Source: Pseudoclavibacter sp. AY1F1
GTDB lineage: Bacteria > Actinomycetota > Actinomycetes > Actinomycetales > Microbacteriaceae
Length of the DNA stretch: 64,000 nt
NCBI RefSeq assembly: GCF_002931075.1
Contig: NZ_PSTQ01000001.1
Coordinates: forward strand, 496,001-560,000
Direction: 5' to 3'
This document shows, piece after piece, positions 6,055-64,000 of the stretch. Each line of letters starts with the position of its first letter. Position 1 is the stretch's first letter. The position numbers and the translations under genes are program-made. A model generated the notes under the pieces. It was not told the origin of the DNA. It saw only the letters and a program-made list of their open reading frames with translations, and made no database searches.

Positions 6055-6063
6055 ATTGGGGAC

Positions 6064-9581: not shown

Positions 9582-9627
9582 GTGAGCGCTGGTGTCTGAG
9601 GGAATCTGAACTCTCCTCGAGACCTGC

Positions 9628-9750
9628 ATGACATCCGGGAGCTCGTCACTCGAGTGGGCCGACGCCCGCCTCACTGCCGGTCGCCGCGTTCGGCGCCGAA
9701 GCTGCGACCTCCGCCCGGCTCAACTTCCCGATCCCTGCCACGTTGCATAA
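9628..9750 (+). CDS. Possible 40-codon leader ORF before the SNF2 helicase gene
   Basis: An ATG at 9628 opens a 40-codon frame whose TAA (9748-9750) abuts the helicase Shine-Dalgarno (GGAGGGG at 9751-9757); the helicase ATG follows at 9759. The peptide begins MTSGSSSLEWADARLTAGRR, is arginine-rich in the middle and has two cysteines near the end. There is no clear ribosome-binding site of its own. The tight stop-to-SD fit suggests translational coupling, but coding status is uncertain and the frame may be fortuitous in a GC-rich leader. Confidence 0.3.
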   Translation: MTSGSSSLEWADARLTAGRRVRRRSCDLRPAQLPDPCHVA

Positions 9751-9758
9751 GGAGGGGC

Positions 9759-11915
9759 ATGTCTCGTAGGACACGCGCCCAAGCTGGCGGTCGCGCCGGC
9801 GTTCACACGGCGCCACGCCACCGCAAACCGGTCGACAACACCGGTGTCATCCCTCAGCTCGCGAAGGCGGCGAGAGAGGTCGAGGCATCGGCGCAGCGAG
9901 GCAAGGTCTCGCCGTCGAACCGCACGAAGTTCCAGGTCATCGCACTCCTCATGCGAGAGGAGCGTGCGAAGGCCAAGGAGTCGACGGAGCTCAGCGAGCA
10001 CGACAGGGCTGAGGCGCTCAAGCGACTGGACGGTCTCGCCTCGATTCTGGCGAAGACGGCGGCACGTGACACCTCGCTCATCAGCCTCCTCGAGCCCGGT
10101 GCGCCAATCAGCGAGGCTGCCAAGGCTCTGCGCAAGCAGATGCTCTTCGCGGGCGGCATCGAGATGGTCATCGATGAGCAGCCAGAGCCGGAAACGCAGA
10201 CGGAGAAGCTCCCGCCTGAGATCGCGCAGCGACAGGTGCTGCCCGGCTCGGTGAAGGCGCGAACCCGCTCGAACCCGTTCCTCGCGCCCGTTCTCACGAA
10301 CGTCAACACCACGACTCCGCACTACTCGCGGCTCTCTAACTGGGAGCTGCTCGGGCCGCTGCTGCGAGCGTTCGAGACCGGCGCCGGCGGCAACGCGGCG
10401 TCGATGGAGTTGCCTCCGGCTCCCCGCTGGGACCGCATCTCCCCGCCGGGGCAAGAGCTCATGGATCACCAGGCGAGGCTCCTCGCGAGCGTCGCCGAGG
10501 GGCACAGGGCCTACCTGCTTGCCGATGAGCCAGGGCTGGGCAAGACCGCGCAGGCGCTTCTCGCCGCCTCAGTCGCCGACGCCTACCCGCTGCTCTGCGT
10601 CGTCCCCAACGTCGTCAAGACGAACTGGGCCCGCGAGGTTCAGCGCTGGACGCCGAACCGCCGCGTCACGGTCATCTCCGGCGATGGCCAGGGGATCGAC
10701 GCCTTCGCGGACGTCTTCATCGTCAACTACGAGATCCTCGACCGTCACCTCGGCTGGCTGACGTCTCTCGGCTTCGAGGGCATGGTGCTCGATGAGGCAC
10801 ACTTCATCAAGAACCTGCAGTCTCAGCGGTCGCGTCTCGTCATGCAGCTCGCGAACAGCATCCGTGCTCGTGTTCCGGGCGCCGACCCGCTCCTCATGGC
10901 GCTCACCGGAACACCGCTCATCAACGACGTCGATGATTTCAAGGCGATCTGGCAGTTCCTGGGCTGGCTCGAGGGCGACCGGCCGTCGCAGCTACTCCTC
11001 GACCGCCTCGACGAGACAGGGCTCGTGCCGAGCGACCCCGGGTTCCTCGCCGCGGCGCGGCAGGCGGTCATCGACCTCGGGATCGTCCGCAGGCGCAAGA
11101 TCGATGTCGCGGCCGACCTGCCCGCCAAGCGTGTCGTCGACATGCCCGTCGAGCTCGACTCCGACGAGGGCAGGAGCATCCGCGCGGCTGAGGCCGCACT
11201 CGTCTCGCGTCTCCTTGAACGGTACCGCCGCATGGCTTCGGCCGCGGGCCTCGAGCCCGGCATCGTCGACCTCGAGCGGGTCAGGATGATCGCGCGGCAG
11301 GAAGTCGAAGAGTCGAAGGCCTCCTCGACCGGCGCAAGCATCTTCACGATGCTCCGCACGATCGGCGCAGCGAAGGCGCGCCTCGCGGCCGAGTACGCGG
11401 GCCAGATCGCACGTTCGGCGGGCAAGGTCGTGTTCTTCGCCAAGCACATCGAGGTCATGGACGCGGCGGAGCGCACTTTCGCCGAGAACGAGATCTCGTC
11501 AGTCTCCATCCGGGGCGACCAGACGCCGGCGGCACGCCAGGCAGCCATCGATGCGTTCCAGAACGACCCGAGCGTGCAGGTTGTCGTCTGCTCGCTCCTC
11601 GCAGCGGGCGTCGGCCTGAACCTACAGGCAGCCTCGGACGTCGTGCTCGCTGAGCTCAGCTGGACCGCGGCTGAGCAGACGCAGGCCATCGACCGCGTGC
11701 ACCGCATCGGGCAGGTGGAGCCGGTCACGGCGTGGCGCATCGTCGCCGCGCAGACGATCGACGCGCGCATCGCCGAGCTCATCGACGATAAGCAGGGGCT
11801 CGCGCTGCGTGCGCTTGAGGGAATCGACACGGGCGAGCAGTCCGCAGACAGCATCCAGGTGGATGCCCTGGCGAGTCTCCTCGAAGCGGCGATCCGGGGC
11901 GTGCGCCGGCAGTAG
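9759..11915 (+). CDS. SNF2-family DEAD/DEAH-box ATPase
   Basis: 718 residues from ATG 9759, which has an excellent Shine-Dalgarno (AAGGAGGGG). A helical N-terminal region of about 215 residues precedes the SNF2 core: motif I DEPGLGKTAQAL (about 255), motif II LDEAHFIKN (about 344), motif III LTGTPLIND, and helicase C motifs VSIRGDQTP, CSLLAAGVGLNLQAAS and DRVHRIGQ (about 645). SNF2 proteins are ATP-driven DNA translocases that remodel protein-DNA complexes. Bacterial ones act in transcription recycling or DNA repair, but this subgroup has no assigned partner. The TAG stop forms the start of the next gene's -10 box. Confidence 0.85.
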   Translation: MSRRTRAQAGGRAGVHTAPRHRKPVDNTGVIPQLAKAAREVEASAQRGKVSPSNRTKFQVIALLMREERAKAKESTELSEHDRAEALKRLDGLASILAKTAARDTSLISLLEPGAPISEAAKALRKQMLFAGGIEMVIDEQPEPETQTEKLPPEIAQRQVLPGSVKARTRSNPFLAPVLTNVNTTTPHYSRLSNWELLGPLLRAFETGAGGNAASMELPPAPRWDRISPPGQELMDHQARLLASVAEGHRAYLLADEPGLGKTAQALLAASVADAYPLLCVVPNVVKTNWAREVQRWTPNRRVTVISGDGQGIDAFADVFIVNYEILDRHLGWLTSLGFEGMVLDEAHFIKNLQSQRSRLVMQLANSIRARVPGADPLLMALTGTPLINDVDDFKAIWQFLGWLEGDRPSQLLLDRLDETGLVPSDPGFLAAARQAVIDLGIVRRRKIDVAADLPAKRVVDMPVELDSDEGRSIRAAEAALVSRLLERYRRMASAAGLEPGIVDLERVRMIARQEVEESKASSTGASIFTMLRTIGAAKARLAAEYAGQIARSAGKVVFFAKHIEVMDAAERTFAENEISSVSIRGDQTPAARQAAIDAFQNDPSVQVVVCSLLAAGVGLNLQAASDVVLAELSWTAAEQTQAIDRVHRIGQVEPVTAWRIVAAQTIDARIAELIDDKQGLALRALEGIDTGEQSADSIQVDALASLLEAAIRGVRRQ

Positions 11916-11918
11916 GCT
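11913..11918 (+). promoter_or_regulatory. -10 box of aspA overlapping the helicase stop codon
   Basis: TAGGCT at 11913-11918; its TAG is the stop codon of the SNF2 gene. Predicted start near 11925, giving aspA a roughly 42-nt leader with GGAGG. Confidence 0.5.
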
Positions 11919-11966
11919 GAGGACAGCGCGGAAACTCAGACGACGAAGTTGGAGGACCATCAGGTC

Positions 11967-13463
11967 ATGTCAGAAACGCAGGAATTCCGTGTCGAACGCG
12001 ACTCGCTCGGCGAGATGCGGATCCCCGCAGGTGCCTACTGGGGCGTGAACACCGCGCGTGCCCTCGAGAACTTCTCGATCAGCCGACGCCAGATCAGCGT
12101 GTACCCGGACTTCATCGTCGCGTATGCGCAGGTCAAGCAGGCTGCGGCTCGCGCGAACCTTGAGATCGGGGTGCTCGACCAGGAACGGTCGTGGCTCATC
12201 GACCGCGCCTGCCAGGACATCATCGATGGCAAGCTCCACGAGGAGTTTGTCGTCGGCGTCATCCAGGGCGGTGCCGGCACGAGCACGAACATGAACGTGA
12301 ACGAGGTCATCGCCAACCGTGCGCTCGAGCTCGCCGGGCGTGAGTTCGGGGACTACGAGTTCCTTTCCCCGAACGACCACGTGAACCGCTCGCAGTCCAC
12401 GAACGACACGTACCCGAGTGCCGTGAAGGTCGCGCTCGTGCATGCCACGGAGCGACTCATCGACGAGTTCACGCTGCTGCAGAACTCTTTCCGCGTGAAG
12501 GGGACCGAGTTTAAGCACATCCTGAAGATCGGCCGCACGCAGCTACAGGACGCCGTACCGATGACGCTCGGTCAGGAGTTCAGGGGCTTCTCCACGACGA
12601 TCGGCGAGGACATCCAGCGACTGAGGGATGTGCTTCCGCTGCTGCTCGAACTCAACCTCGGCGCGACAGCGATCGGCACCGGCATCACCGCAGAGGCCAG
12701 CTACGCCTCTGCCGTCATGCGCCAGCTGCGGGAGATCACGGGCTACAACGACCTGCAGACGGCTCACGACCTCATAGAGGCGACCAGCGATACCGGCGTG
12801 TTCATGTCGCTCTCGAGCGTCATCAAGCGCACGGCAATGAAGCTCTCGAAGATCTGCAACGATCTTCGCCTGCTCTCCTCAGGCCCGCAGGCGGGCCTCG
12901 GTGAGATCAACCTGCCGGCGCGTCAGGCAGGTTCGTCGATCATGCCTGGCAAGGTGAACCCCGTCATCCCCGAGGCGGTGAACCAGGTGGCGTTTGTCAT
13001 CGCGGGAGCCGACGTCACCGTCGCAATGGCTTCAGAGGCCGGCCAGCTGCAGCTCAACGCCTTCGAGCCGGTCATGCTGCACACGCTCATGCAGAACTCG
13101 GCCTGGCTTCGCCGCGCCGCGCGCACGCTGCGAGTGAACTGCATCGACGGGATCACCGCCAACGAAGAGCTGCTCGCGTCGCGCGTCTCGAGCTCCGTGG
13201 GTGTCGTCACGGCGCTGACGCCATACATCGGCTACTCCGAGGCGTCGAAGCTCGCGAAGGAGGCGCTCACCACCAAGGCCACGATCGCAGACCTGGTCGT
13301 CGAGCGGGGGCTCCTCAGCCGCGAGGAGGTCACGAGCATCCTCTCGCCCGAGAGGCTCTCCGGCATCCAGGCAGTCACGAGCGCGATCCCGATCATCTCG
13401 CAGGCCGAAGCCATGGCGCTCGAGGACAGCCTCGACAGGGCTGACCTGCGTGACTTCTCGTAG
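11967..13463 (+). CDS. aspA: Aspartate ammonia-lyase (aspartase)
   Basis: Reversibly deaminates L-aspartate to fumarate and ammonia. 498 residues of the aspartase/fumarase superfamily. The superfamily signature GSSIMPGKVNPV is intact. QGGAGTSTNMNVNEVIANRA and PNDHVNRSQSTNDTYPSAV favour aspartase over class II fumarase, whose equivalent reads GSGTQTNMN. The catalytic SS-loop Ser lies in GSSIMPG. ATG 11967 is used; GGAGG is 11 nt upstream. A TTG at 11949 would add six residues but would overlap the Shine-Dalgarno. A strong terminator follows. Confidence 0.88.
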   Translation: MSETQEFRVERDSLGEMRIPAGAYWGVNTARALENFSISRRQISVYPDFIVAYAQVKQAAARANLEIGVLDQERSWLIDRACQDIIDGKLHEEFVVGVIQGGAGTSTNMNVNEVIANRALELAGREFGDYEFLSPNDHVNRSQSTNDTYPSAVKVALVHATERLIDEFTLLQNSFRVKGTEFKHILKIGRTQLQDAVPMTLGQEFRGFSTTIGEDIQRLRDVLPLLLELNLGATAIGTGITAEASYASAVMRQLREITGYNDLQTAHDLIEATSDTGVFMSLSSVIKRTAMKLSKICNDLRLLSSGPQAGLGEINLPARQAGSSIMPGKVNPVIPEAVNQVAFVIAGADVTVAMASEAGQLQLNAFEPVMLHTLMQNSAWLRRAARTLRVNCIDGITANEELLASRVSSSVGVVTALTPYIGYSEASKLAKEALTTKATIADLVVERGLLSREEVTSILSPERLSGIQAVTSAIPIISQAEAMALEDSLDRADLRDFS

Positions 13464-52612: not shown

Positions 52613-52685
52613 TCCCTGATAGCTCAATTGGCAGAGCAGCCGGCTGTTAACCGGCAGGTTGATGGTTCGAGTCCATCTCAGGGAG
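52613..52685 (+). tRNA. tRNA-Asn (GTT)
   Basis: 73 nt cloverleaf. Acceptor arms TCCCTGA and TCAGGGA with discriminator G; D arm AGCTCAATTGGCAGAGC; anticodon loop CTGTTAA with anticodon GTT closed by CCGG-type stem; T arm with GGTTCGAGTCC. No encoded CCA. A strong terminator follows 5 nt later. tRNA genes are common integration sites, and accessory genes begin right after this one. Confidence 0.96.
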
Positions 52686-52690
52686 CTGTC

Positions 52691-52729
52691 AAACCCCCGT
52701 ACTTCCGCCGAAGTACGGGGGTTTCTTTT
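52691..52729 (+). terminator. Rho-independent terminator after tRNA-Asn
   Basis: A perfect 15-bp stem, AAACCCCCGTACTTC (52691-52705) against GAAGTACGGGGGTTT (52710-52724), loop CGCC, tail CTTTTAT. Confidence 0.93.
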
Positions 52730-52791
52730 ATGCTCAGAACACGCCGAATCAGGGGCTTATAGGACAAAACGTGTGTATGAGCTCGTGCGTG

Positions 52792-53742
52792 TCATGGCCT
52801 GCCTGCCCAGCCTGAGCGGCTCCAGAGGCCTTCCTCGGCGCTGAGGGTGGTGTCGTGGAACGCGACGAGAGGGGCCAAGTCGTCGGTCTCGTCAAGTGCG
52901 GCGCTCGACTCGAGGGTCGCTGTCGTGAGCGTCGTCGGGATGAGCGCGTAGGCGTGCTCGATGGTGAGCTCGCGCGTGTAGAGGAACCATTCCGCGGCGC
53001 GTTTCATGTGTGCCTCGCTCATCCCGCGGTGGTTGCGGAGCGTGGTGCGGATGCCGTTGTTGATGCCGCCCTCGAGCGGGCTCGTGGTGCGCGCATTGCC
53101 GTGGGTCACGAACGTGAACAGGTGCCCGTTGGCGGAGAGGCGGCTGAGCAGCAGCCAAGCTTTCCGGAGCTTGTCGTGGGTCCACCACTTCGACCAGCCG
53201 TCCGTGGAACGCTGCTTCGTGAGGTGCCCGTGTTGAGTCCACCAGGCGTGGAACCCCATCTGCCAGGCGATCGCGGAGTCTGTGTCCTCGACGCGTGAGA
53301 GGGCTCTCGAGAGCTTCAGCAAGTCTCGACCGGCGCGGGTTCTCGGGCGCAGCGTGCGGTGACGACGCACGTTCATCTGAACGTGAAACATGCACCGCTG
53401 GGTCTTCGTGTCCGGCCAGCAGGAGCGAGCCGCCGAAGCGAACCCGGCTCCGCCGTCGCAGACCACCACCAGAGGAGCGGGGATCCGTGTCAGGAGCGCC
53501 GTCCAAGCGGCCGCCGACTCGCGGGCGCACCACTGCCATGCCAGTACCTGCAGGTCCTCCGTGACCGCGATCAGCAGACACCACGAACCGACATAGATCC
53601 GATCGACCAGGACAACACGATGGCGCGTCTCGACCGGGCCGAGTGTCGGCTCGATCGCCCAGCACCACGCTGTCCGGCGTCTCAGTTGTCGGGCGCGCTC
53701 GGCCCGCCGAGCTCGTTCTGGGAGTGCTTCCCGAGCAGCCAC
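52792..53742 (-). CDS. IS256/IS1249-like transposase, catalytic part (second frame)
   Basis: The catalytic DDE region of the transposase. It shows the first Asp in HRVVLVDRIYVGSWCLLIAV, second Asp in LVVVCDGGAGFASA, and Glu in TTSPLEGGINNGIRTTLRNH, plus QRCMFHVQMNVRRH. All three catalytic residues are present. The frame has no good start of its own (its N-terminal residues before TAWCWAIEP overlap the upstream frame and look unrelated). It is joined to the upstream zinc-ribbon part by a -1 shift in the 53682-53742 overlap. Programmed frameshifting or a disabling mutation are both possible. Confidence 0.8.
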   Translation of the reverse strand: MAAREALPERARRAERARQLRRRTAWCWAIEPTLGPVETRHRVVLVDRIYVGSWCLLIAVTEDLQVLAWQWCARESAAAWTALLTRIPAPLVVVCDGGAGFASAARSCWPDTKTQRCMFHVQMNVRRHRTLRPRTRAGRDLLKLSRALSRVEDTDSAIAWQMGFHAWWTQHGHLTKQRSTDGWSKWWTHDKLRKAWLLLSRLSANGHLFTFVTHGNARTTSPLEGGINNGIRTTLRNHRGMSEAHMKRAAEWFLYTRELTIEHAYALIPTTLTTATLESSAALDETDDLAPLVAFHDTTLSAEEGLWSRSGWAGRP

Positions 53743-53948
53743 TGCAGGAACTCCCGTAGCTCGTTGCGGCGAGCGAGGTCAGCGCGCTTCCTGACGGACG
53801 AGGACCCGCTGTTCAAGCACCGCCACCGTTGCGTCCGCGCGGGAGTCTTCCCGTTCTTCACGAGCCGTTGCCCGCATACCAAACAAGTCGTCGTGTTGGC
53901 GTCGTTTCCCACGACTAAGGGTCCCGGACTAAGACCACCCCTCGACAC
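53682..53948 (-). CDS. IS256/IS1249-like transposase, N-terminal zinc-ribbon part (first frame)
   Basis: 88-residue frame holding the N-terminal domain: TTTCLVCGQRLVKNGKTPAR then TQRWRCLNSG, a CxxC...C zinc-ribbon-like start typical of IS1249 transposases, followed by the helix ELREFLQWLLGKHSQNE. The true start may be GTG 53912. It stops at 53682 while the catalytic part continues in the -1 frame. Related single-frame transposases run through this point without a stop. Confidence 0.7.
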   Translation of the reverse strand: MSRGGLSPGPLVVGNDANTTTCLVCGQRLVKNGKTPARTQRWRCLNSGSSSVRKRADLARRNELREFLQWLLGKHSQNELGGPSAPDN

Positions 53949-54005
53949 GCCTGCAACGGCGGGCCTAGATCAAGATCCGATACACACGTTCTGTCCTATA
54001 AGCCC

Positions 54006-54278
54006 ACCTGGACAGTGAACCTTAGGGTCCGCGGAGACTCGGCGGCCAAGGGGCTCCTGCGCCTAGCTCTCCAGCACCCGGTACTGGACGCCAAGATCGT
54101 CGCCGATGAGCTGGGAACGAATCGCGCCGCCACCTATCGCCATCTTGAGCGGCTCACGGAGGCCGGTATCTTCCGTGCAGAAGGTGGAGATGGAGCTCTC
54201 GGGGCAACGTGGGCGGTTCCGGAATTGATCGCCATCCTTGACAGGTTCGCTCGGACCTCGGCCAGGATGGGGCACTAG
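54006..54278 (+). pseudogene. 3' remnant of a Fic-family gene cut by the IS element
   Basis: About 90 residues (possible GTG 54015) in frame from the IS boundary: a C-terminal winged helix, LDAKIVADELGTNRAATYRH and LERLTEAGIFRAEG, then WAVPELIAILDRFARTSAR. This end is characteristic of actinobacterial Fic (AMP-transferase) proteins, where a C-terminal helix-turn-helix follows the Fic core. The catalytic HPFx motif is absent because the IS lies where the rest should be. The same fold exists in other regulators, so the Fic assignment is moderate. Confidence 0.5.
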
Positions 54279-54365
54279 CCACCCCACTCACCGCCGGCTC
54301 CAGCACGTCGCGTTCTGCATCGATGCGCTGGGGCAGGTGGTGTCTTCTGGCGCCGGCTCCGAATG

Positions 54366-54406
54366 CCGTATTAGAATAAGCAGCATCCCTGCTTTATCTA
54401 ATACGG
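54366..54406 (+). promoter_or_regulatory. Inverted-repeat operator upstream of the AbiE-like operon
   Basis: 18-bp arms CCGTATTAGAATAAGCAG (54366-54383) and CTGCTTTATCTAATACGG (54389-54406) match at 16 of 18 positions around a 5-bp centre. The right arm ends in the antitoxin gene's Shine-Dalgarno (GGAGG), and the AT-rich arms include TATTAG/CTAATA -10-like blocks. AbiEi antitoxins autoregulate by binding inverted repeats in this position. Confidence 0.75.
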
Positions 54407-54413
54407 AGGCCTC

Positions 54414-55340
54414 ATGGACGCGAGTGCGCTCCTGCGTCGTCTGCGCTCGGCTGGAGCGCACGCAGAGCTGCGTGATGGTGTGATCGCGGTCGACGGTCGA
54501 CCGACCAGGCTCCTGTTTGGGCGAAAGCGCCTTCCTGAGCTTGTGCTCCTCGAGCGTGCTGCAGCAGAAGTGGCAGCGCTCCAGGACAACACGCTGCTGA
54601 TCGTTGTCGCACCGCGAGCTTCGGCAGCTGCGAGGGAGTGGGTGCTGGGGCGCCCGGACCTGGTGACGCTGGTGCTCGATGCCCTCGTGCTCCACCAAGG
54701 CCAGGTATTCCCACTCGAAGAGACACCGTTGGCTCCCGTGCCTAAGCGTGGTCCGCGACCGTACGCCCGGTACGCGGTCTCCCGAGCGCTGCTCTCCGGC
54801 GCATCCAAGACCGATCAGAATCACCTCGCCGAACTCGCAGGGGTCACGCAAGGCTCGGTGTCGACGGCGCTCCGTGCAACCGATGCTTCGGCAGCTCCCG
54901 CAGAACGGTTCGACATGCTCCTGCGGACATATCCCGGGCCAGGCGGGCAGACCTTCTATTGGTGGAGCGACCGTCCCATCCGCGAGCAAGCGGACGTCCT
55001 CCGGTCCCATGGCACACTCACCTCGGGTGACTTCGCCGCAGACGTGCTGGCGCCGTGGCGACTGTCCGAGCGCGCCGTCAGTTACGCGCGGGCTCCGATT
55101 GACCTCAGTCGTGATGGCTTCGTGCTCGCCACCGAGAGTGACTACACGGCAATGGTGATCGTGCCGCAAGACCCCACGCTCTGGGCCACCGCTGAAGCTT
55201 GGGGCGAGCCCGACATCGCGGACCCGCTGATCACAGCCTTCGACGTTCAGCGCACAGCCACGACGGGTGACGGCGACGAGGCGGTTGAGAAGCTGCGCGA
55301 GCTCGTGGTCCGCCGAGCCCAAGGGGGCGCTGATGGCTGA
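54414..55340 (+). CDS. AbiEi-like antitoxin / transcriptional regulator
   Basis: 308 residues. An N-terminal region of about 110 residues, then a central helix-turn-helix (KTDQNHLAELAGVTQGSVST, about 128-150), then a C-terminal domain (TLTSGDFAADVLAPWRLSER). Position upstream of an AbiEii-like nucleotidyltransferase, 8-nt overlap (ATGGCTGA) and an inverted-repeat operator support the role of a type IV-like toxin-antitoxin antitoxin and autorepressor. The domain order differs from the classic AbiEi (N-terminal HTH), so it may be a divergent branch. ATG 54414 has GGAGG 5 nt upstream. Confidence 0.6.
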   Translation: MDASALLRRLRSAGAHAELRDGVIAVDGRPTRLLFGRKRLPELVLLERAAAEVAALQDNTLLIVVAPRASAAAREWVLGRPDLVTLVLDALVLHQGQVFPLEETPLAPVPKRGPRPYARYAVSRALLSGASKTDQNHLAELAGVTQGSVSTALRATDASAAPAERFDMLLRTYPGPGGQTFYWWSDRPIREQADVLRSHGTLTSGDFAADVLAPWRLSERAVSYARAPIDLSRDGFVLATESDYTAMVIVPQDPTLWATAEAWGEPDIADPLITAFDVQRTATTGDGDEAVEKLRELVVRRAQGGADG

Positions 55341-56094
55341 CGCCTATCTCGTCTCGGGGACCGCGGCGGAGGACGCGTCGTTCCGAGCTCTCGCCGATCT
55401 CACGCAAGCCCTCGATGGTGAGGAAAATGCTGGCGTCGTGGGTGGACACATGGTCTCGATCCTCTGCGCGCGATTTCCGAGCCCGGGGACGGTAGAGCGC
55501 CGGACCAATGACGCGGACGGGGGAGTGCCAGCGGCCTTCGCCGCCACCGGAGCTCCGCACGAACGCCTCCTCGCCGCGGGCTACGAAGCCATCGACGGGA
55601 ACCGCTACGAGCTGGTCGAGGAGAACGGAGCGGTCAGGACGGTCGATCTCCTCGTGCCCACCCATTCCTCCAAGTTCGCGAGCAAGAGCATCGACGGGCG
55701 AGCGTTCGACAGCATGCCCGGCCTCGACCTCGCGCTTGCTCGGCCGCTCACTGTGGACTTGAACGTGACCCTCTCCAATAAGAGCGAGCTCGAACTCGGG
55801 GTAACGCTCCCCGCTGTCGAAGGCGCAGTCATCCTCAAGTCCTACGCTTGGGCAGGGCGGCTCGCAACGAAAGACGCGATCGACCTGCACAGCCTCTTCA
55901 GGGTCGTCGTAGCGAACCGCGAAGTCATCGGCGACTGGCGCCTCGACGAGCGTCCTCCGCGAGGTGCTCGGCTGGACACTGCACGGACGTTGCACGCCCT
56001 TGCCGACCAGTGGGAGACTCGCCCGCCCAAGGTGACTTTCGAATCACGGCTCCTAGTGGCCGGGGTCCGCCGGCACGTGGCCCGCCCAAGATGA
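55333..56094 (+). CDS. AbiEii-like nucleotidyltransferase (putative toxin)
   Basis: 253 residues from ATG 55333, overlapping the antitoxin stop. Nucleotidyltransferase-fold marks: GGHMVSILCARFPSP followed by ERRTNDADGG (Asp-x-Asp metal site, about 59-61), third acidic residue in AVRTVDLLVP, and the family C-terminal element ILKSYAWAGRLATKDAIDLH. AbiEii/MenT-type toxins transfer nucleotides to tRNA or other targets and cause abortive infection or growth arrest. Catalytic residues look intact. Substrate unknown. Confidence 0.72.
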   Translation: MADAYLVSGTAAEDASFRALADLTQALDGEENAGVVGGHMVSILCARFPSPGTVERRTNDADGGVPAAFAATGAPHERLLAAGYEAIDGNRYELVEENGAVRTVDLLVPTHSSKFASKSIDGRAFDSMPGLDLALARPLTVDLNVTLSNKSELELGVTLPAVEGAVILKSYAWAGRLATKDAIDLHSLFRVVVANREVIGDWRLDERPPRGARLDTARTLHALADQWETRPPKVTFESRLLVAGVRRHVARPR

Positions 56095-56483
56095 CCCGCG
56101 ACCGCCCCTGCATGTCGCGTCCTGGGTCGATGTGCTGCTGCCGGTGAGGTGCCGAGGAACTCAGTTCCTCCCGGGAATCGTCCGTTTGCAGCGTGGCCAA
56201 CCGACGGAACTCGAGCCCCGGGGTTGCTTCTTTCGACAAACGCCGAGCGCCCCCACGGCAGTGGCCACGTCGGCGCCGGCAAGCCACGAGCGTGCCTGAC
56301 AGCAGAGCGGCGCCCCGACGGAGTTGGTGGGCCCTGGAGTTCGCGTGAACGCTCGATGATTCGAGGGGATCGGCCAAACCGTTTCGGATGGTGAGTGGCC
56401 TCGTCGACAACGACTACGTTGATTCGAAGAATCTCATTCGACTCAACGAACGCGTCGGAACGTACACGTACTCGGAGGACCAC
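56095..56483. other. Intergenic region, AbiE-like operon to the HSP90-like pair
   Basis: 389 bp. No frame with recognisable similarity on either strand. A 17-bp inverted repeat GAGGAACTCAGTTCCTC sits at 56154-56170, perhaps ending the toxin transcript. GATTC/GAATC half-sites near 56410-56435 lie upstream of the 743-residue protein gene and may mark its promoter. Confidence 0.5.
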
Positions 56484-58715
56484 ATGATCGGTTACGCGGA
56501 CCTGCAGGATCTTCAGGGGGAGCAGCGCGAGCGCATTCAGGCGCTCTACGATCGCAGCCACCGTCTCTGGGCGCTCCCGGACGATATGGGCAAAATCGAC
56601 GCCATTGAGGAGTTCATCGGTGACTGCGAACGCGCGCAGCTGCCGCCCCTCATCGCCAGTGCGCTCTTCAACCTGCACATGACCTACGGGGACGGCGGTC
56701 TCACCCGCGAAGCACTGACGGCCTTCGCTCGACTCATGCGTCTGCTCGACCGCCATGGTGACCTCGTTCACCCGAGCAACGTCACCCGCATGCTCAACGC
56801 AGTGGCCACGAGTACCCTCACCATGTTGAACGACCCGACAGTGCCACTCGAGCAACTCACCCGAGTCATCGATCTGGTAGAAGCTCAAGTGCGCGCCCGC
56901 GGTACCGACCCAGTCGGTGTACTCGTCGCCAGGGCGGCAGTTGCCTCGGCCCGCGGTGATGGGCGCGAGACGGCCAACTGGATCGAGCGGTGGCGTTCCG
57001 AGGCGAGTGAGGAATGGCGAGCAGATGATCTCGGAGTGATCCAAATCGAGCTGCCGCTCATCGCAAGTTTCGACTTGCCGCGTGCGACCGAGACGCTCGA
57101 GCAACGATTGCGGATGGTTGGCATCGACCGTGACCGACTCGACCTTCAGCAGCGCACCGAGGCAATGCCAGTGCTCGCCATGCTCGCCTTCTTCCACCTC
57201 CGCTCCGGTAACGTCGACGAGGCTAGAGCGATCGCCGACCAATTGGTCGACGGCGTCGGCATCGAGGTCCTTGTCCGCGAGGCTGCAGCCAGCCAGCTCA
57301 TCCCCATATTGGAACATCGTCCTGACGTGGCGCTTTTCGTGGTCGATGACGTCCTGCGCAATCTGTCTATGAATGAGAGCGATGCGGAGACGTTGGCCGC
57401 GGTGGCACGCAATCGGCTCCTCGCCGCCCCTGACGGGACCGAGGGGCAACTGCTGCGAGTTCTCGCGCATCAGGCTGCAGCCGCCCTTGACCGGCGCGGT
57501 GCGACCGATGTACACGTTCGTGAGCTTGAGGACTTCTGGTGGGCGGGTGTCGAGTCCCGCCCCACGCCGAGTGTGGTCGAGGACGAGCAGACCTGGGGCA
57601 CCCCGAGTGGCCGTGCGCTGCTTATCCTCTCCGCTGGGTGGTTAGCGAGAGAAGGCTCGGTACGCGAAGACCGCATCCCCTTGTCCCTGTGGGACAGATA
57701 CACGGCGCTCTTCGACCGATTCCGTGAGCTCATGGCAACAACAAGTGTGGAAGAAACGGATGCGCTGGCAGCTGAGCTGGAGGCCGAGGGAGAGCTCCTT
57801 CACTGTGCAACCACACGCTTCTGTGTGCCGCTTTTCCACTCGATGCAGTCGTCGATGCTCGGCGCCAACGGAAAGGTCGTTGACCTCTACCAGCGCGCGC
57901 AGCGCTCCCTGGTGACCGACCCAACGGCGGTGAACGCGACATACCGCGGGTACGCGCCCTCGGCCTTCCTGCTCGCGCTCCTGGACGGAGTGTCCACGCC
58001 AAGCGTCCCGTGGTCGCAGATCGAGGAAGTCATCGAAGCCGAGGACCAGCTACGCCCGTGGACAGGCGGCTCCGACGCTCGAATTCACTTCGCGCGAGCG
58101 GAGATCGCCGCCCACCACGGTGACCTGGTGGAGCTGCGCGATCGGACGGACCGCATGTTTGCCAGCCTCGCTGCTGATGAGGAGCCCTTTGATCGGGGCA
58201 TTCTCGACCTCGTCGCTGTCCGGCAGACGGCGCTGACCCTCCCGGACATCGCCGAGAAAGCGGCGATACGCGTCGCAGAAGTAGGCAACGAACTGCAGCG
58301 GCGCGGTGCGGCCGGTTGGTTGTGCTGGATACGGGCACGCGACGGGGACCGGTCCGGCGGAACCGAACTCGCTGCGCTCCTCGAGTCCGTCGGAGGTGCG
58401 ACTGACGAGATCGAGCAGTTGCCTGGCTGGGCGCTCCTCGAAGCCTTGTCAGACGCGGATCTCGATCTCGTCTCGGTCGTGGATGCGCTTCTCAAGGAGA
58501 CGATCGAAGGTGACTGCACGGAAGTCGAGCTCTTCGCAGCCGCGAGCCGGGTGCTGCAGGATCGGGCCCCGAACGACCCCCGCGGAGCGAAACTGAGGGA
58601 GGACGTGGAACAGATTGCCCGCGGTCTCGACGAGCGCAACGGCAATCACGCGTGGAGCACGCACCTTCAAGACCGCTGGCTGGACAAGGGCCGGGTCTTT
58701 GGAGCACGAGCATGA
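56484..58715 (+). CDS. 743-residue alpha-helical protein of unknown family, partner of the HSP90-like ATPase
   Basis: ATG 56484 has GGAGGA 5 nt upstream; the frame extends 96 nt further upstream but without a start of comparable quality. Soluble (no TM or signal peptide). The sequence is almost wholly amphipathic helices rich in Ala/Leu/Glu/Arg, with TPR- or alpha-solenoid-like periodicity, e.g. ALTAFARLMRLLDRHGDLVH, VARAAVASARGDGRETANWI, AMLAFFHLRSGNVDEARAIA and ARAEIAAHHGDLVELRDRTD. I find no catalytic motif. It overlaps the HSP90-like gene by ATGA, implying a stable complex or coupled dosage. A role as substrate adaptor or sensor is inference. Confidence 0.8.
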   Translation: MIGYADLQDLQGEQRERIQALYDRSHRLWALPDDMGKIDAIEEFIGDCERAQLPPLIASALFNLHMTYGDGGLTREALTAFARLMRLLDRHGDLVHPSNVTRMLNAVATSTLTMLNDPTVPLEQLTRVIDLVEAQVRARGTDPVGVLVARAAVASARGDGRETANWIERWRSEASEEWRADDLGVIQIELPLIASFDLPRATETLEQRLRMVGIDRDRLDLQQRTEAMPVLAMLAFFHLRSGNVDEARAIADQLVDGVGIEVLVREAAASQLIPILEHRPDVALFVVDDVLRNLSMNESDAETLAAVARNRLLAAPDGTEGQLLRVLAHQAAAALDRRGATDVHVRELEDFWWAGVESRPTPSVVEDEQTWGTPSGRALLILSAGWLAREGSVREDRIPLSLWDRYTALFDRFRELMATTSVEETDALAAELEAEGELLHCATTRFCVPLFHSMQSSMLGANGKVVDLYQRAQRSLVTDPTAVNATYRGYAPSAFLLALLDGVSTPSVPWSQIEEVIEAEDQLRPWTGGSDARIHFARAEIAAHHGDLVELRDRTDRMFASLAADEEPFDRGILDLVAVRQTALTLPDIAEKAAIRVAEVGNELQRRGAAGWLCWIRARDGDRSGGTELAALLESVGGATDEIEQLPGWALLEALSDADLDLVSVVDALLKETIEGDCTEVELFAAASRVLQDRAPNDPRGAKLREDVEQIARGLDERNGNHAWSTHLQDRWLDKGRVFGARA

Positions 58716-60505
58716 GCGATGAGCGCTTCCTCGTCGACCTCCGCGGACTCGTCGACATCCTGTCCCACCATTTGTACTCCAGCCCGAGGGTGTATCTGCG
58801 TGAACTCATACAGAACGCGCGGGATGCAGTGGTTGCACGCCACGAGATCGACCCGGAGTCACCTGAGCAAATCAGCATTACGGTCGATGAGAGCTCCGGA
58901 GCCGTTACCGTCCGAGACCAGGGCATCGGACTCACCGAACAGGAGATGCGGGAAGTACTGGCGACAATCGGTGCGTCGAGCAAACGAGACGACTTCGCTC
59001 AGACCCGGCGCAAGTACCTCGGACAGTTCGGTATTGGGCTGTTGTCCTGCTTCTTGATCGCGGACCGCATCGAGGTACGCTCCCGGAGTGCCCGCACCGC
59101 AAATGCACCAACGATCAGCTGGGTCGGTAGTGCGGACGGCACGTTTACCATCAGCCCCGCCGCTGAATCCCTCGCCGAGCCGGGCACGGAGGTGCGTTTT
59201 CAGGCCCGACCCGACGAGCGGGAATGGACGCAACCGCATCGTGTGCGACTGCTGGCCGAGCGCTTCGCGGGACTTCTCGACCTGCCAGTGGCACTCCATC
59301 GAGGACCACTCCTGCCCGCTGAGATCGTCAGCCAGCGAACACAGCCCTGGCGGGGCACCGGACAGGAAATGGAGGACTGGGCGTACCAGGAGTTGGGATT
59401 CCGGCCGCTCGCAATCCTCTCGATCGCTGTGCCAGGTGCCGGAGTGCGTGGGCTCGCGTTCATCGCTGATAGCCCGGGGCAGGTAGGCACGCGTCGAGGT
59501 GACACTGTCTACTCGAGGGGCATGTTCGTCACGGACAGCAGCGTGCAACTGGTTCCGTCGTGGGCATACTTCGTGCGCCTCGCCGTGGAAGCCGGTGACC
59601 TGCCGCTCACGGCGTCACGGGAAGCACTCCAAGATTCAATCACGATCGACGCCGTCAAAGAACAGATAGGCACGCAGATTCGGGAAGGCATCGAGCGGTT
59701 CGCGGCGAACGATCCAGCCGCTTTCTCCAAGTTCCTAGACGTCCATGCCAAGGGCTTGATGGCAATGGCGGTCAGCGACGACGACATGCTTGAGCTCGTG
59801 TCGCAGAGCGTGAAGTGGGAGACGAACGAGGGAGACCAGACGCTGGCGCAGATGCGGCGGCGCGCAGAGGCGGTGCTCTACACGACCTCGATGACAGACT
59901 TCACCGCTTTTGCACCGATTCTCGCCGCGCGCGGCACGCCCCTCGTGAACGCTTCCTACGTGTACGGACGCGAAATCCTGCGTCGGCTGGTCGACCGTCC
60001 GCTTCGAGGGGCACGATTGCGAGCCTTCGACGCTGGGCGCTTCATTGATGAGCTACCGCTCCCACTTCCCGGGGACACCGCGGCTCGGTTACTTGAGGAG
60101 CAGGCACGTCCGGTGCTTCACCGACTTGGGGTTGCACTCGACCTCAGAGAATTCTCACCCGTGACCGTGCCGGTGCTCTTCGTCGGCGCCTCCGGGGACC
60201 CTGAATTTGATGCAGTCGGCGACGACGAAGATGACGGTGATGACGCGTGGGGCAACTTCCTCAGCGATCTCGTGACGCCAGCTGAGTCGACTGCCGCGCG
60301 GGGCCCGCGCCTGGTCGTCAACGTGGGAAGCACCTCCGTGCGCGCGTTCGGGACAATCAAGGATCGGTACGTCCGCGAGGAAGCCATCGCCGGTCTCTAC
60401 GTGATCGGCAGGCTCACTGCGGGGGAGCGACTTCAGCCGCAAGATGCGGTGCTCCTCAACCGAGCCTTGCAGGCGCTCATGACGGCGGCAGGGGACCGGC
60501 CGTAG
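58712..60505 (+). CDS. HSP90-family (GHKL) ATPase, HtpG-like
   Basis: 597 residues from ATG 58712, overlapping the partner stop. Full HSP90 layout: N-terminal GHKL ATPase with VYLRELIQNARDAVVAR (N box), VTVRDQGIGLTEQEM (G1) and KYLGQFGIGLLSCFLIAD (G2), a middle domain (YSRGMFVTDSSVQLVPSWAY, PLTASREALQDS) with the conserved catalytic Arg region, and a shorter, divergent C-terminal region ending with an acidic DDEDDGDDAWGNF stretch. It is closer to the actinobacterial accessory HSP90 family proteins than to housekeeping HtpG (about 620-640). Functional partnership with the upstream gene is inferred from coupling. Confidence 0.85.
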   Translation: MSDERFLVDLRGLVDILSHHLYSSPRVYLRELIQNARDAVVARHEIDPESPEQISITVDESSGAVTVRDQGIGLTEQEMREVLATIGASSKRDDFAQTRRKYLGQFGIGLLSCFLIADRIEVRSRSARTANAPTISWVGSADGTFTISPAAESLAEPGTEVRFQARPDEREWTQPHRVRLLAERFAGLLDLPVALHRGPLLPAEIVSQRTQPWRGTGQEMEDWAYQELGFRPLAILSIAVPGAGVRGLAFIADSPGQVGTRRGDTVYSRGMFVTDSSVQLVPSWAYFVRLAVEAGDLPLTASREALQDSITIDAVKEQIGTQIREGIERFAANDPAAFSKFLDVHAKGLMAMAVSDDDMLELVSQSVKWETNEGDQTLAQMRRRAEAVLYTTSMTDFTAFAPILAARGTPLVNASYVYGREILRRLVDRPLRGARLRAFDAGRFIDELPLPLPGDTAARLLEEQARPVLHRLGVALDLREFSPVTVPVLFVGASGDPEFDAVGDDEDDGDDAWGNFLSDLVTPAESTAARGPRLVVNVGSTSVRAFGTIKDRYVREEAIAGLYVIGRLTAGERLQPQDAVLLNRALQALMTAAGDRP

Positions 60506-61496
60506 AGGCATCGGCTTCGCACCGGTATGGCGCCGATAACGGCGAACGCGGCGCCCTGGACAGTCTTACTGCACGTCCGCCAAGTCCGGGCAGTAGACGT
60601 CGTGCTTGTCGAGCCCAACAGGGTCGGTTCGATTTTCGGCGATCATGCGGGAGCTGCGGGACCGAGTCCGGAGTAGCGTCGGCACCTGTCCGGCGATGCG
60701 CTCTGCCCGGTCGGTTTCGCCGCAGAAGACGCGGGCGAGCCGTCCCAGGCGAGACCGGCGGAACGCGAACACGAAGATCATCCGTTCGGGGTCGGCACAC
60801 CGCGGCGCTGTGGGCAGCACACCTTCAGCTTTTGCGGGCATCGAGCCCCGAGACGAGGACTAGAAGCAGCTGCGCCACCCGCAATGTCGACGAGTAGATG
60901 CAGGATTTCGTATTGATCAAGCACATTCGCTGGCTGTGATCCTGTCGTATAGGCCAACACGCACCATGCTGCAGCCGCACCCGACCGACCTCGATCGCGA
61001 GTGCTTTCATGCACGTCAGGTGCACCTTCGACGACGGCGCGCATCGCGGGCGGCGAACGGCCGGGAACCTGGACGGTAGGAGCCGCGGGCCATCGCTGAT
61101 GCTTGTCGTGCGAGACCCTGCGGGCTTCGGCAGGGATTGCGAGACTGCCATCCCGGTGCCGAGCAGAAAAGCGCCCCCGCTCGGAGTCACTCACGATGCA
61201 GGGGCGCTGGCGACGAAATTTCTGGCGCCGTGTCCCCCGACGCGTCGCCTCATCTCGTCGCGCATCGAAGCGTATCTGCCGTAGAAGCTCGCCGGGAGCG
61301 GTTTCCCGTGGCGCGCGAAAGGGGTCTCGCACCAGCGGGGGAACAGGTGCGAGGCCCGGCGTCGCAGCGCTTGGGGGCGAGCCGCGACGCACTCACCCTA
61401 TGCGCGTTGCTCGCGGAGGCGGAAGTCCCCTCTCACCCCTTGACATTTCACCGGCCCCAGTGTCGGCTGTGGCCCTTACACCCGCATAGATCGACC
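60506..61496. other. 991-bp region with no supported gene
   Basis: High GC with open frames on both strands, but none shows family motifs, a convincing start or codon periodicity I can trust. A minus-strand frame 60566-60841 (91 codons; contains RMIFVFAFRRSRLGRLARVF) is the most protein-like and could be a degraded gene. A perfect TTGACA (61440-61445) lies near the right end before the small gene at 61497. Confidence 0.5.
61440..61445 (+). promoter_or_regulatory. Consensus -35 TTGACA upstream of the 73-residue gene
   Basis: TTGACA matches the sigma-70 -35 exactly; a weak -10 (TCGGCT) lies 17 nt downstream at 61463-61468. The start codon follows at 61497. Confidence 0.35.
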
Positions 61497-61718
61497 ATGA
61501 CCACCACCTCGCAGTCCTCCCTCGACCAGCTCCCCGACATTCGACGTGAAGAAGCCGACCGCGACCACCCGTCGACCGTGGACGCATACGCTGCCGGCTA
61601 CCTCGCGGGTCTCGCCGACGGCGGCGACCAGGTCGTGCGGCATCTGCACCGGCAGCCGGAGTTCCGTGCCGCGCTGCTGCGATCCGCGCAGATCGCCGCT
61701 GAGCTCGGAAGGAGCTGA
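61497..61718 (+). CDS. Small hypothetical protein (73 residues)
   Basis: Starts MTTTSQSSLDQLPDIRREEA, with an acidic disordered N-terminus and a helical second half containing VDAYAAGYLAGLADGGDQVV then RHLHRQPEFRAALLR. It resembles short accessory proteins of actinobacterial plasmids or integrative elements that come in runs with the following broken genes. No motif suggests an activity. ATG 61497 is chosen because the frame upstream has no similarity and a -35-like site lies about 50 nt upstream. Confidence 0.6.
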   Translation: MTTTSQSSLDQLPDIRREEADRDHPSTVDAYAAGYLAGLADGGDQVVRHLHRQPEFRAALLRSAQIAAELGRS

Positions 61719-61910
61719 CGACACGGCGGCCTGGGCGGGTGCAAGGTCTGCGACCGGGCCCCGATGTGCGAGATGGGAGAGAAGACGGAGCCGTAGGTGC
61801 TGATCCCGAAGCTCTGGCACAACCAGGTGCTGGTGCGGATGCCCGCGCACAGGAAGGCGTGGCGAGCGCACCGCTGGCACCCCGACAACATCGCCGCCCG
61901 AACCCGCTGA
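61719..61910 (+). pseudogene. Broken small gene with an in-frame TAG
   Basis: Frame starting directly after the previous stop reads GGLGGCKVCDRAPMCEMGEK, then TEP, a TAG at 61794-61796, then LIPKLWHNQVLVRMPAHRKA and WRAHRWHPDNIAARTR to TGA 61908. The two halves read as one protein (CxxC near the N-terminus, WHN and HRWHP basic-aromatic C-terminus). No ATG/GTG/TTG precedes the CxxC part, so the gene lacks both a start and continuity. A GTG at 61797 could start a 37-residue relic. Confidence 0.45.
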
Positions 61911-61954
61911 CCACACTCGCCGAAGTTCCACGGAAATAAGAGGAGTAGCTCGTC

Positions 61955-62725
61955 ATGACGACTGCAGCAGAATCACGCCGCGAATCCGCCCGCGGCAACG
62001 GCACGACCGGAGGCCAGTTCGGCTTCCAGGACCACACGCCGCCCGCGGCCGCGCCTTCAGTGGCATGGCCGGGAACGAACCGGAACGTGCGCGACCACGA
62101 CTTCGTGCCCGCCAGCGCCGCCGACTGGCCCGGCCTCTACGGCACCGAAGGGCAAGGGTCAGGACTCGGCGGGAAGCAGTTCGTCGCGCACTACTCCGGC
62201 CCCGGCTACGACTACTGGGTCTGCGAATACGACCCCGAGACCCGCCAGGTGTTCGGGTACGCCTGCATCGTCGGGCACGGCGACGGCGAGTACGGCTAGG
62301 CCGACTTGAACGAGCTCGAGGCGACCAAGATCGACGTGTTCAACCCAGCATCCTCGGGCCCCTCCAACTGGACCGTCAAGACAGCCGCGATCCACCGCGA
62401 CAGCGACTTCGAAGACCTCCCATCGGAGCAGCGATACGCGCACCAGCACCTCGACAAGTACCGCGGCCAGGTCCTCGACCAGCTCGACCGGTCTGATCGC
62501 GATGAGGTGAACAGCCGAGTCTCCCAGTGGCAGGCCGCCGTGCTGAGATTGCGAGAAACCGCTGATGGGTCCTGGAGCACGCGTGCGGTCGCGTCGGTCG
62601 ATGTGGTCGCCGCTCAGCGCGAGGTGGAGGCGCTCACTACAGAGCACGGCCTCGTCTTCGACCCGGCCGATGGAGGGTCGTTCACGGTCGCGGAGCAGCA
62701 TGCTGAGAACGAGCTCCCCGAGTGA
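61955..62725 (+). pseudogene. DUF2958-like protein gene split by an in-frame TAG
   Basis: ATG 61955 opens a 114-codon frame ending at TAG 62297-62299; the same frame continues open for 142 codons to 62725. The protein pattern crosses the stop: CEYDPETRQVFGYACIVGHG, then GEYG-(TAG)-ADLNELEATKI. In the related DUF2958-type proteins I recall, an aromatic residue occupies this position (EWGYxSLxELE), so TAC to TAG is the likely change. The 3' half (helical, VDVVAAQREVEALTTEHGLV) has no start codon of its own except TTG 62306. Accessory-element protein of unknown role. Confidence 0.55.
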
Positions 62726-62740
62726 CGTCGCACAACGACG

Positions 62741-62775
62741 AAGCCGCCCCGATGCATCTCTGTGCGGGGCGGCTT
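62741..62775. terminator. Terminator between the split gene and the convergent small gene
   Basis: A perfect 11-bp stem, AAGCCGCCCCG (62741-62751) against CGGGGCGGCTT (62765-62775), with a 13-nt loop. It serves genes converging from both sides. Confidence 0.8.
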
Positions 62776-62788
62776 GGTGGGAAGGCGG

Positions 62789-62983
62789 TCAGCGGACGAG
62801 GATCGTTGCCCCTGCGAGCACAGCGCTCCAAAACCGGACAGCGATAGCCAGCCCGATGAGGATTCCACGCATGGACTTCACTGACTCGGAGTAGCCGCGA
62901 TCGGCGCCGGGTCCGCGCTCGATGATCGGGATGAGTTCGATTGGAGAGGAAGCTGCGGGGAGGGGGTGCGTCGTGGTGGTCAT
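62789..62983 (-). CDS. Small membrane protein (one C-terminal TM)
   Basis: 64 residues from ATG 62983; GGAG 6 nt upstream favours this over the in-frame ATG at 62995. The first 40 residues are hydrophilic (SSPIELIPIIERGPGADRGY) and the C-terminal 25 form one hydrophobic helix (MRGILIGLAIAVRFWSAVLA). It resembles small accessory membrane proteins on mobile elements. Function unknown. Confidence 0.6.
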   Translation of the reverse strand: MTTTTHPLPAASSPIELIPIIERGPGADRGYSESVKSMRGILIGLAIAVRFWSAVLAGATILVR

Positions 62984-63037
62984 GTGAGGCTCCATGGTTT
63001 GGATGGGGGTGTCCTCTCCTATGCGGGCAGTGACGAC

Positions 63038-63070
63038 GAACCCCGCCGCACGCGGTGCATGACGGGGTTC
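63038..63070 (-). terminator. Terminator of the HNH nuclease gene
   Basis: GAACCCCG (63038-63045) pairs with CGGGGTTC (63063-63070); an internal GCAC/GTGC stem fits within the loop. It lies 24 bp past the nuclease stop on the minus strand. Confidence 0.7.
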
Positions 63071-63093
63071 GAGGTCCTACTGATCTGGGCGCG

Positions 63094-64000
63094 CTAGGCC
63101 TTGCGGCGATGCTGGAGCACGAGAGCGGTCAGCGCGACGAGCGCTGCACCTGCCAGCCCCAGCGTCCAGGGCAGCGCCGCGTCGCCGGTGGTTGCGAGGA
63201 CGGAGGAGCCAGTCTCAGCCTCGTGCCCGGCCTCGGCGGGCGCCACGGCGGCAGCATGCGTCTCAGACTCGACCGGAGCAGGTGTACTGGTTGCTTCCGG
63301 GGCGGGGGTAACCTCCACCGTCTCGATGGGCGTGGTCGACGGCGTGACGCTCGGGTCCGTCACGACTGCGCCGGCCGGGAGCGCGCACGAGCTCACACCC
63401 GCGAAGGAGACGCCGTTGATGATGCCGCCGTTGATGATCGCGTCCTGGTCGATGGGCGTGACAGCGAGGTCGTACACCTTGAGAACGCTCGTCAACTGCG
63501 CCAGGTATGTGCAGTGGAAGGCGGTGTTGGTCGGCATCCATTCGGACGCGAGGCGCATGCCTTTCGCCGAGTTCGCACGCCCCTCGACCGCCTGCAGGTT
63601 CATCGGGTCGTTGGCGAGTGCTTCACGCTTGGTGGCATCCCACTCGTTCGCGCCACCGGTCCATGCGGCGGCGAGCGGGATGATGTGGTCGATCTGGACA
63701 GCACCGGACGTCGCGACGCCGCGGGTGAAGGGGATCGCCTCGCCCGTGTACGGGTCCTGGAGGGTCCCGCGTTCGACGATGCAGTCGCTCCCGTCGCGGA
63801 GGACGACGTTCGTGAGGTCGCGCTGGAGCATGTCGTTGCGGGCGTCGCACCCGTTGCCGTCCGGGTCAGCCCAGTGCTTGAACAGGTCGCGGTCGTATCC
63901 CGTCGCAGACGAGTTCACGGTCCGCAGCCCCTCAGCGGCAGCTGCGACCGCGGCACCGTCCACGTACCAGGCGCCGTCGACCTGAGATGCGAACCCGGCG
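63094..64000 (-). CDS. Secreted, wall-anchored HNH endonuclease (DUF1524/GmrSD C-terminal-type), 5' end outside window
   Basis: The frame is open to the window edge, so the N-terminus (expected signal peptide) is missing. The core matches DUF1524-type HNH nucleases: YDRDLFKHWADPDGNGCDAR, QDPYTGEAIPFTRG, GAVQIDHIIPLAAAWTGGAN (HNH His), NDPMNLQAVEGRANSAKGMR (Asn region) and SEWMPTNTAFHCTYLAQ. A Thr/Pro/Glu-rich linker of about 80 residues follows, then LATTG, a TM (LPWTLGLAGAALVALTALVL) and RRK: a sortase LAxTG cell-wall sorting signal. Predicted to degrade DNA at the cell surface. GmrSD-like restriction enzymes share the HNH fold but are cytosolic. Confidence 0.82.
   Translation of the reverse strand, partial: AGFASQVDGAWYVDGAAVAAAAEGLRTVNSSATGYDRDLFKHWADPDGNGCDARNDMLQRDLTNVVLRDGSDCIVERGTLQDPYTGEAIPFTRGVATSGAVQIDHIIPLAAAWTGGANEWDATKREALANDPMNLQAVEGRANSAKGMRLASEWMPTNTAFHCTYLAQLTSVLKVYDLAVTPIDQDAIINGGIINGVSFAGVSSCALPAGAVVTDPSVTPSTTPIETVEVTPAPEATSTPAPVESETHAAAVAPAEAGHEAETGSSVLATTGDAALPWTLGLAGAALVALTALVLQHRRKA

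Follow-up and report, generated by a model that had tools for sequence, protein, structure and literature searches.

We analysed a stretch of 64,000 nucleotides from Pseudoclavibacter sp. AY1F1 (contig NZ_PSTQ01000001.1, positions 496,001 to 560,000; hereafter the window), which carries two overlapping genes encoding a helical protein, HEL, and an HSP90-family ATPase (Table 1). The results suggested that these genes probably form a two-gene module, in which an HSP90 of the NF010683 branch would act with a dedicated tetratricopeptide repeat (TPR)-like adaptor or co-chaperone. Such an adaptor is notable because bacterial HSP90 has been said to lack co-chaperones. Press et al. 2013 (PMC3708813) state that obligate co-chaperones of bacterial Hsp90 had not been identified, and a 2021 study of Hsp90 and DnaK in E. 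coli (PMC7926864) reports no identified bacterial Hsp90 cochaperones taking part in protein remodelling. Our literature search, which had partial coverage and included few subscription journals or bioRxiv preprints, found no description of the pairing as a module. A TPR-like protein kept beside one bacterial HSP90 branch is a concrete, testable co-chaperone candidate, and the domain and the gene pair offer a handle on partner proteins that have no Pfam or NCBIfam name.

The window HSP90 scored 536.1 bits against the NCBIfam model NF010683 (PRK14083, "HSP90 family protein"). This score exceeded the curated cut-off of 455 over nearly the whole length, with protein residues 3-593 aligned to positions 5-595 of 604. 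Against canonical HtpG (NF003555), the score of 198.9 bits lay under the cut-off of 371, placing the protein outside that family, although the three-domain HSP90 fold and the catalytic Glu and Arg are alike in both. Glu31 and Arg303, which correspond to E34 and R336 of HtpG, were invariant in 19 aligned rows. The family profile aligned to residues 4-610 of 624 in structure 2iop, which we take to be E. coli HtpG, and to TRAP1, indicating that the N-terminal, middle and C-terminal domains were present. The structural model (predicted local distance difference test, pLDDT, 82) had an HSP90 fold and matched full-length Hsp90 with TM scores of 0.58-0.69 among the matches listed, and the acidic stretch formed a low-confidence loop at residues 494-529. 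A preliminary description, made from the letters of the window, had proposed a complete GHKL ATPase with HSP90 layout and a shortened C-terminus; the layout was confirmed, and the shortening was contradicted by the coverage of NF010683. The window's HSP90 set scored low within the branch (537 and 517 bits), the other places over the cut-off reaching 656-863 bits except for one at 480 (G431), and the family entry itself names no partner. Chen et al. 2006 (PMC1525184) split bacterial HTPG into groups A-C and described two copies in S. coelicolor; the NF010683 branch is probably their Group C.

HEL matched no Pfam or NCBIfam family above cut-off, and its model was an all-helical solenoid (pLDDT 89.4; predicted TM score, pTM, 0.80), in agreement with the earlier account of a 743-residue all-helical protein without a family. 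In a fold search, the two halves matched mostly TPR proteins, with MalT domain III as the best match, and the TPR-like fold of the partner is a confident prediction. A profile of the TPR-type N-terminal domain, made without the helical family, matched HEL at E 4.5e-22, compared with 0.4 for the best of 200 shuffles. Profile-profile comparison detected the partner domain in both halves (probabilities 98.0 and 96.6) and matched one half to the other (96.4), indicating that HEL is a tandem duplication. The comparison of HEL with TPR-type partners gave an hhalign probability of only 27% when fewer sequences were used and became strong once more were added.

The domain of about 350 residues opens most partners and ends in FDxRNG[TNS], with the strict pattern in 67/79 and a looser form in 75/79. 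Partners were built as a single domain, as a tandem (the window) or as a domain with an extension, which was TPR or YbjN in some. The Glycomyces partner is one domain copy of 355 residues, the Actinomadura kijaniata partner (L142) has two copies, and a Microbacteriaceae partner (L029, 6663-8297) is one copy fused to YbjN (PF10722). Most other partners consist of one copy and a long extension, assigned to TPR by Pfam in Streptomyces L161 and to no family in L021. In Listeria, an NF010683 HSP90 (799 bits) is followed by two adjacent single-domain genes (E 1.9e-59 and 2e-58), and in Paenibacillus one 354-codon open reading frame (ORF) overlapping the end of the HSP90 gene matched the domain at E 6.4e-66. 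The partners of Glycomyces, Paenibacillus and Listeria were close in length to the domain alone. Partners are annotated as hypothetical in the records of Listeria and Streptomyces globosus and have no Pfam or NCBIfam family name. In G130 (L064, 6993-8687), the partner frame seems to be interrupted past residue ~400 when compared with its relatives, through either a sequencing error or a real change.

The main rival explanation is that HEL is itself the client on which the HSP90 obligatorily acts. It would then be a sensor or regulator of the TPR type, comparable to MalT domain III or the RRNPP sensors, and be kept ligand-ready by HSP90 as steroid receptors are; the output would be regulation exerted by the TPR protein. 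We consider this reading unlikely. Pfam, NCBIfam and PADLOC scans of HEL found no DNA-binding or enzymatic output domain, and the partners of Glycomyces, Paenibacillus and Listeria are barely longer or shorter than the bare domain; both observations speak against this reading. TPR solenoids often match one another in fold, which is no proof of function.

The adjacency of the two genes was assessed in genus, family, phylum and named-locus sets. The genus, actinobacterial and named sets overlap, and the same genomes appear as L063 and L150 and as L015/L018 and L077/L078. In the genus set, 7/10 genomes had an HSP90 match. The partner domain adjoined HSP90 at 9/9 full-length loci, and a HEL gene lay directly upstream in eight of them. 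At the ninth (L019), the HSP90 was 34% identical and had no HEL gene upstream; a TPR-type partner domain was found downstream (E 6.9e-72) in an ORF truncated where the contig ends. In the family draw, NF010683 was over its cut-off in 13/100 genomes, and HEL itself occurred in its own genome only. Ten of the 12 other loci were fetched (without G065 and G081), and each HSP90 was followed by a protein of 545-997 residues, the genes sometimes overlapping. In the phylum set, NF010683 was over cut-off at 15 places in 12 of 396 Actinomycetota genomes, and the partner was directly downstream at 12 of the 13 places outside the window's own genome. Over the other actinobacterial NF010683 loci in all, the partner domain stood beside HSP90 at 22/23. 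The named set comprised the best 80 of 577 relatives, which is not a census, and contained a partner at 79 loci (Brachybacterium, Glycomyces, Streptomyces, Micromonospora, Nocardia, Actinomyces and others); at eight named loci the available DNA ends inside the partner ORF, so some partner lengths are cut short. The TPR profile was made from the neighbouring ORFs of L021-L029, so a match at those loci shows no more than mutual resemblance of the neighbours; the profile was built without L030, L061-L073 and the named loci. Canonical HtpG loci had such a partner in 0/3 cases.

The reverse test gave a corresponding result: in the 396 genomes, 14 of 16 places with the partner domain at E <= 1e-8 touched an NF010683 HSP90. 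The preliminary description had held that HSP90 homologues found mostly without the helical partner would refute its two-component module; within NF010683 this was clearly not the case, and the module was supported by the adjacency in the genus, actinobacterial and named loci and by the reverse test. A conserved third gene was not found at these loci, the most shared neighbour families reaching 6 genera or single family loci. A second partner-like gene was observed near the same HSP90 at four loci (L023 2343-8198, L131 3856-6888, L084 and L118).

Both genes were open over their full extents, and the ATGA overlap reported earlier was confirmed; a four-nucleotide overlap (ATGA or GTGA) was present in 8/8 Pseudoclavibacter HEL-HSP90 loci measured, the window included. 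The ratio of nonsynonymous to synonymous substitution rates between the window and a relative in genome G005 was 0.13 for the HEL gene and 0.08 for the HSP90 gene, with 0 stops. Purifying selection acts on both genes, in the copy on the island as well as in the other copy of this genome. In a 63-row HSP90 tree, eight Pseudoclavibacter sequences, Brachybacterium and Glycomyces formed one group (94/59; 93% of bootstrap trees). These ten are the tree's HSP90s that have a HEL-type partner, and the other Microbacteriaceae were placed elsewhere, suggesting that the pair moved between lineages as a unit; the tree has several long branches, Glycomyces included, and its details are unsure. The partner gene comes first in Pseudoclavibacter and the HSP90 gene comes first in Brachybacterium and elsewhere, which indicated that adjacency was kept despite a change of order.

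These observations also bear on a simpler explanation, in which the pair is a stress HSP90 and a TPR protein placed under common regulation for operonic convenience, with no joint action. Overlapping or closely spaced genes do favour co-transcription. However, adjacency outlasts the change of order, apparent horizontal transfer and duplication, and the partner domain is seldom found elsewhere in the sample of 396 genomes. We regard mere convenience as very improbable.

The catalytic residues and fold of the HSP90, the TPR-like solenoid of the partner and HSP90 tails without EEVD together led us to propose an adaptor or co-chaperone. We infer ATPase activity, physical binding, an adaptor role and client choice for the pair. 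The partner would most likely dock on HSP90 through the domain of about 350 residues, and its groove may capture particular client proteins or peptides. The ATP cycle of HSP90 would then remodel, hold or activate the captured clients, and the C-terminal extensions (TPR, YbjN or a second domain copy) could set the client range. The TPR-like fold fits the earlier suggestion that the helical protein is the recognition part, as it would suit either a recognition or an adaptor role. In eukaryotes, TPR co-chaperones of Hsp90 include Hop/Sti1, FKBP51/52 and PP5. The likeness to the window pair lies in a TPR-type helical protein devoted to HSP90, with the fold predicted and the binding putative. In contrast to those proteins, the partner has a longer solenoid and is encoded beside an HSP90 whose branch lacks the EEVD tail. 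The partner appears to be a bacterial equivalent of the proteins that assist and direct HSP90 in human cells.

Several results weigh against the adaptor proposal. No HSP90 tail ended in EE[VIL]D (0/88, two loci counted twice), that is, the eukaryotic docking signal was absent, so any docking of the partner would be unlike the Hop/FKBP type. TPR solenoids serve many other uses. Two HSP90 genes stood without a partner domain. At L073, the exception in the phylum set, an ORF of up to 328 codons overlaps the end of HSP90 and is TPR-like by eye; at L115 (Phycicoccus, 7359-12086), the HSP90 was matched only to residue 495, had no partner and was followed by a gyrB-like reading frame. Conversely, the domain occurred without HSP90 in G311, where a YbjN-like ORF lies directly upstream, and in G278, where the neighbour is an IS110-like ORF (labels by eye). 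In the tree, Listeria and A. kijaniata L142, whose partners consist only of the domain, lay outside the HEL-type group, indicating that partner type does not simply map onto the HSP90 tree. Profile comparison detected no homology between gammaproteobacterial partners and the partner domain. Finally, upstream regions (n=109) contained 0 CIRCE (controlling inverted repeat of chaperone expression) sites and one HAIR-like (HspR-associated inverted repeat) site, so nothing ties the pair to classic heat-shock control.

Some of these places are of interest in themselves. In G311 (L185, 7532-9609), the domain behind the YbjN-like ORF is a second co-occurrence of domain and YbjN besides the L029 fusion. 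The G278 partner (L186, 6561-11200 in reverse-complement numbering), from a genome with the genus label of the Streptomyces set, is an orphan of 1071 codons and possibly a pair minus its HSP90. The single HAIR-like operator, upstream of HSP90 at L028, had 1 mismatch, and the next best of the 109 regions had 4.

An HSP90-like gene followed by a protein of 764-774 residues was also observed in Xanthomonas, P. aeruginosa and Salmonella Infantis (L159 5947-10170, L160 5881-10122 and L163 5986-10133), and both of the proteins scanned by Pfam had weak TPR matches. The P. aeruginosa locus L160 is presumably PA1068/PA1069. Its arrangement, an HSP90-like gene and then a 764-residue protein with weak TPR matches, resembles the window pair, but the HSP90-like protein scored 293 bits, below the NF010683 cut-off, and the partner was not detectably homologous. 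PMC4053335 briefly describes the P. aeruginosa hypothetical protein PA1069 as apparently operonic with an Hsp90 gene. The partner domain was not matched at Methylobacterium L165, at the three gammaproteobacterial loci or at the Pseudanabaena locus. In Gammaproteobacteria, the HSP90 may be paired in a similar way with a partner from another family.

A broader reading of these data goes beyond the adaptor proposal, and we offer it tentatively, as a possibility slightly short of an even chance. The FDxRNG domain beside NF010683 HSP90s in Actinomycetota and Bacillota could be a widespread, ancient and dedicated bacterial HSP90 co-chaperone, elaborated by duplication, TPR or YbjN for client choice and carried as a mobile two-gene cassette, perhaps with other TPR partners in Gammaproteobacteria. 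Such a bacterial partnership of a TPR protein and HSP90 would work without the EEVD clamp.

The preliminary description had interpreted the pair as a two-component stress or anti-phage module, naming Tiamat among the GHKL ATPases of defence islands. If the pair served phage defence or abortive infection, HEL would sense a phage trigger and the HSP90-like ATPase would be the switch. The island that carries the window copy indeed has a transposase and a GmrSD_C gene close to the pair, and the pair and GmrSD-like DNA recur together in G005. On a Pseudanabaena plasmid (L164, 5213-13512), a distant HSP90-like gene lies by TIR, DEAD/DEAH helicase, TPR, VWA and AAA genes, a setting that resembles defence loci. 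A plasmid of Streptomyces globosus and an unverified scaffold from faeces in the phage collection (L162) also carry pairs, and PMC6901971 flags Listeria lmo0941, presumably the partner by locus order, for selection. However, PADLOC has no model that covers the pair, and 0/10 window and island ORFs were matched. Scoring the neighbours for defence genes, a check that the preliminary description had proposed, revealed no enrichment, with 4 model matches among 90 neighbours compared with 3 among 90 controls (E <= 1e-10). All 90 neighbours came from 10 pair loci, and the controls were a random draw of 90 out of 138 proteins in 10 regions chosen arbitrarily from those genomes; these are small samples, and the simple GC-frame gene-calling script misses Streptomyces genes. 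There was no recognisable effector, the scanned island ORFs were largely metabolic or regulatory, and the pair occupies a core locus in Streptomyces, with a recG-like neighbour at 27/40 named loci (best 80 of 577 set; neighbour names by eye). The likeness to Tiamat (TmtA) was confined to the GHKL ATPase domain: Tiamat is one protein of more than 1000 residues (models of 1063-1782 positions), whereas the window has a full HSP90 of 597 residues in a two-gene arrangement, with a match at about 10-133. The preliminary description had also named conservation at one core locus, as for a housekeeping gene, as evidence against defence. This was partly observed (5/10 genus genomes; Streptomyces recG), but the HSP90 is patchy, being present in 13/100 family genomes. 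The phage-defence explanation is improbable in our view, and the adaptor proposal accounts for a gene pair in an island without it.

The scaffold L162, labelled 'Bacteriophage sp.', encodes, at 1924-6488, an NF010683-like HSP90 with 38.6% identity as well as a partner domain (E 5e-71) and may be bacterial DNA. A search for HEL in plasmids gave no match.

The pair lies in an island that follows a tRNA gene (Table 1).

Table 1. Positions of the gene pair and of island features in the window.
Feature	Position	Strand	Basis or remark
HEL, 743-residue helical partner	56484..58715	+	Two tandem TPR-like domains of ~350 residues (predicted), residues ~1-371 and ~372-743
HSP90-family ATPase, 597 residues, NF010683 (PRK14083) type	58712..60505	+	NCBIfam score, catalytic residues, fold
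ATGA stop/start overlap (HEL stop, HSP90 start)	58712..58715	+	Read from sequence
tRNA-Asn (gtt)	52613..52686	+	ARAGORN; end of shared chromosome, start of island
Mutator-family transposase ORF, left end of island	52792..53742	-	PF00872, E 4.2e-8
Pair cassette	56329..60495	+	blastn against L016; 85.8% over 4167 bases to second copy in G005
GmrSD_C / HNH-type gene, runs off window	63094..64000	-	PF07510, E 5.2e-16 on 63094-63963

The DNA shared with related genomes ended at window positions 52686-52708 in G004, G005, G006 and G008. It resumed about 37.5 kb later in G005, G006 and G008, which had about 110, 2090 and 890 bases between the flanking stretches; in G004, it did not resume within the stretch fetched. 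The site in G005 is nearly empty, as only about 110 bases separate the island-flanking stretches. These results confirmed the accessory island next to a tRNA that had been described earlier. Neither the AbiE-like operon nor the Fic relic of that description was recovered, as no such family occurred in the part of the ORFs scanned with Pfam, PADLOC and NCBIfam; a Mutator-type transposase was confirmed. Close to the far end of the island (contig 585997-586059) there is a tRNA-like repeat (86%), and other tRNA-like places match the query too. No integrase was found among the island ORFs scanned, which were part of the total.

The whole pair occurred twice in the genome, and the HSP90 had no further match there at E <= 0.001. 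The other copy (contig 299,590-303,575) is 47% identical in HEL and 65% in HSP90 to the window copy, and its locus was syntenic in 5/10 genus genomes (G000, G004, G005, G006 and G008); in G002, the alignment was limited to parts of the pair itself. The DNA directly flanking the pair cassette was not common to the window and the G005 copy by blastn, and GmrSD-like DNA and a related island end also lie near the G005 pair in a different place (blastn to L016 5048-5959). The window pair is an extra, intact and mobile copy, carried as cargo of the tRNA-Asn island beside the chromosomal copy of the host. The island spans window positions 52687-64000 and continues to about contig position 586190, and its content includes esterases, two-component and ABC/FtsX genes, a D12-type methyltransferase ORF and the GmrSD_C gene.

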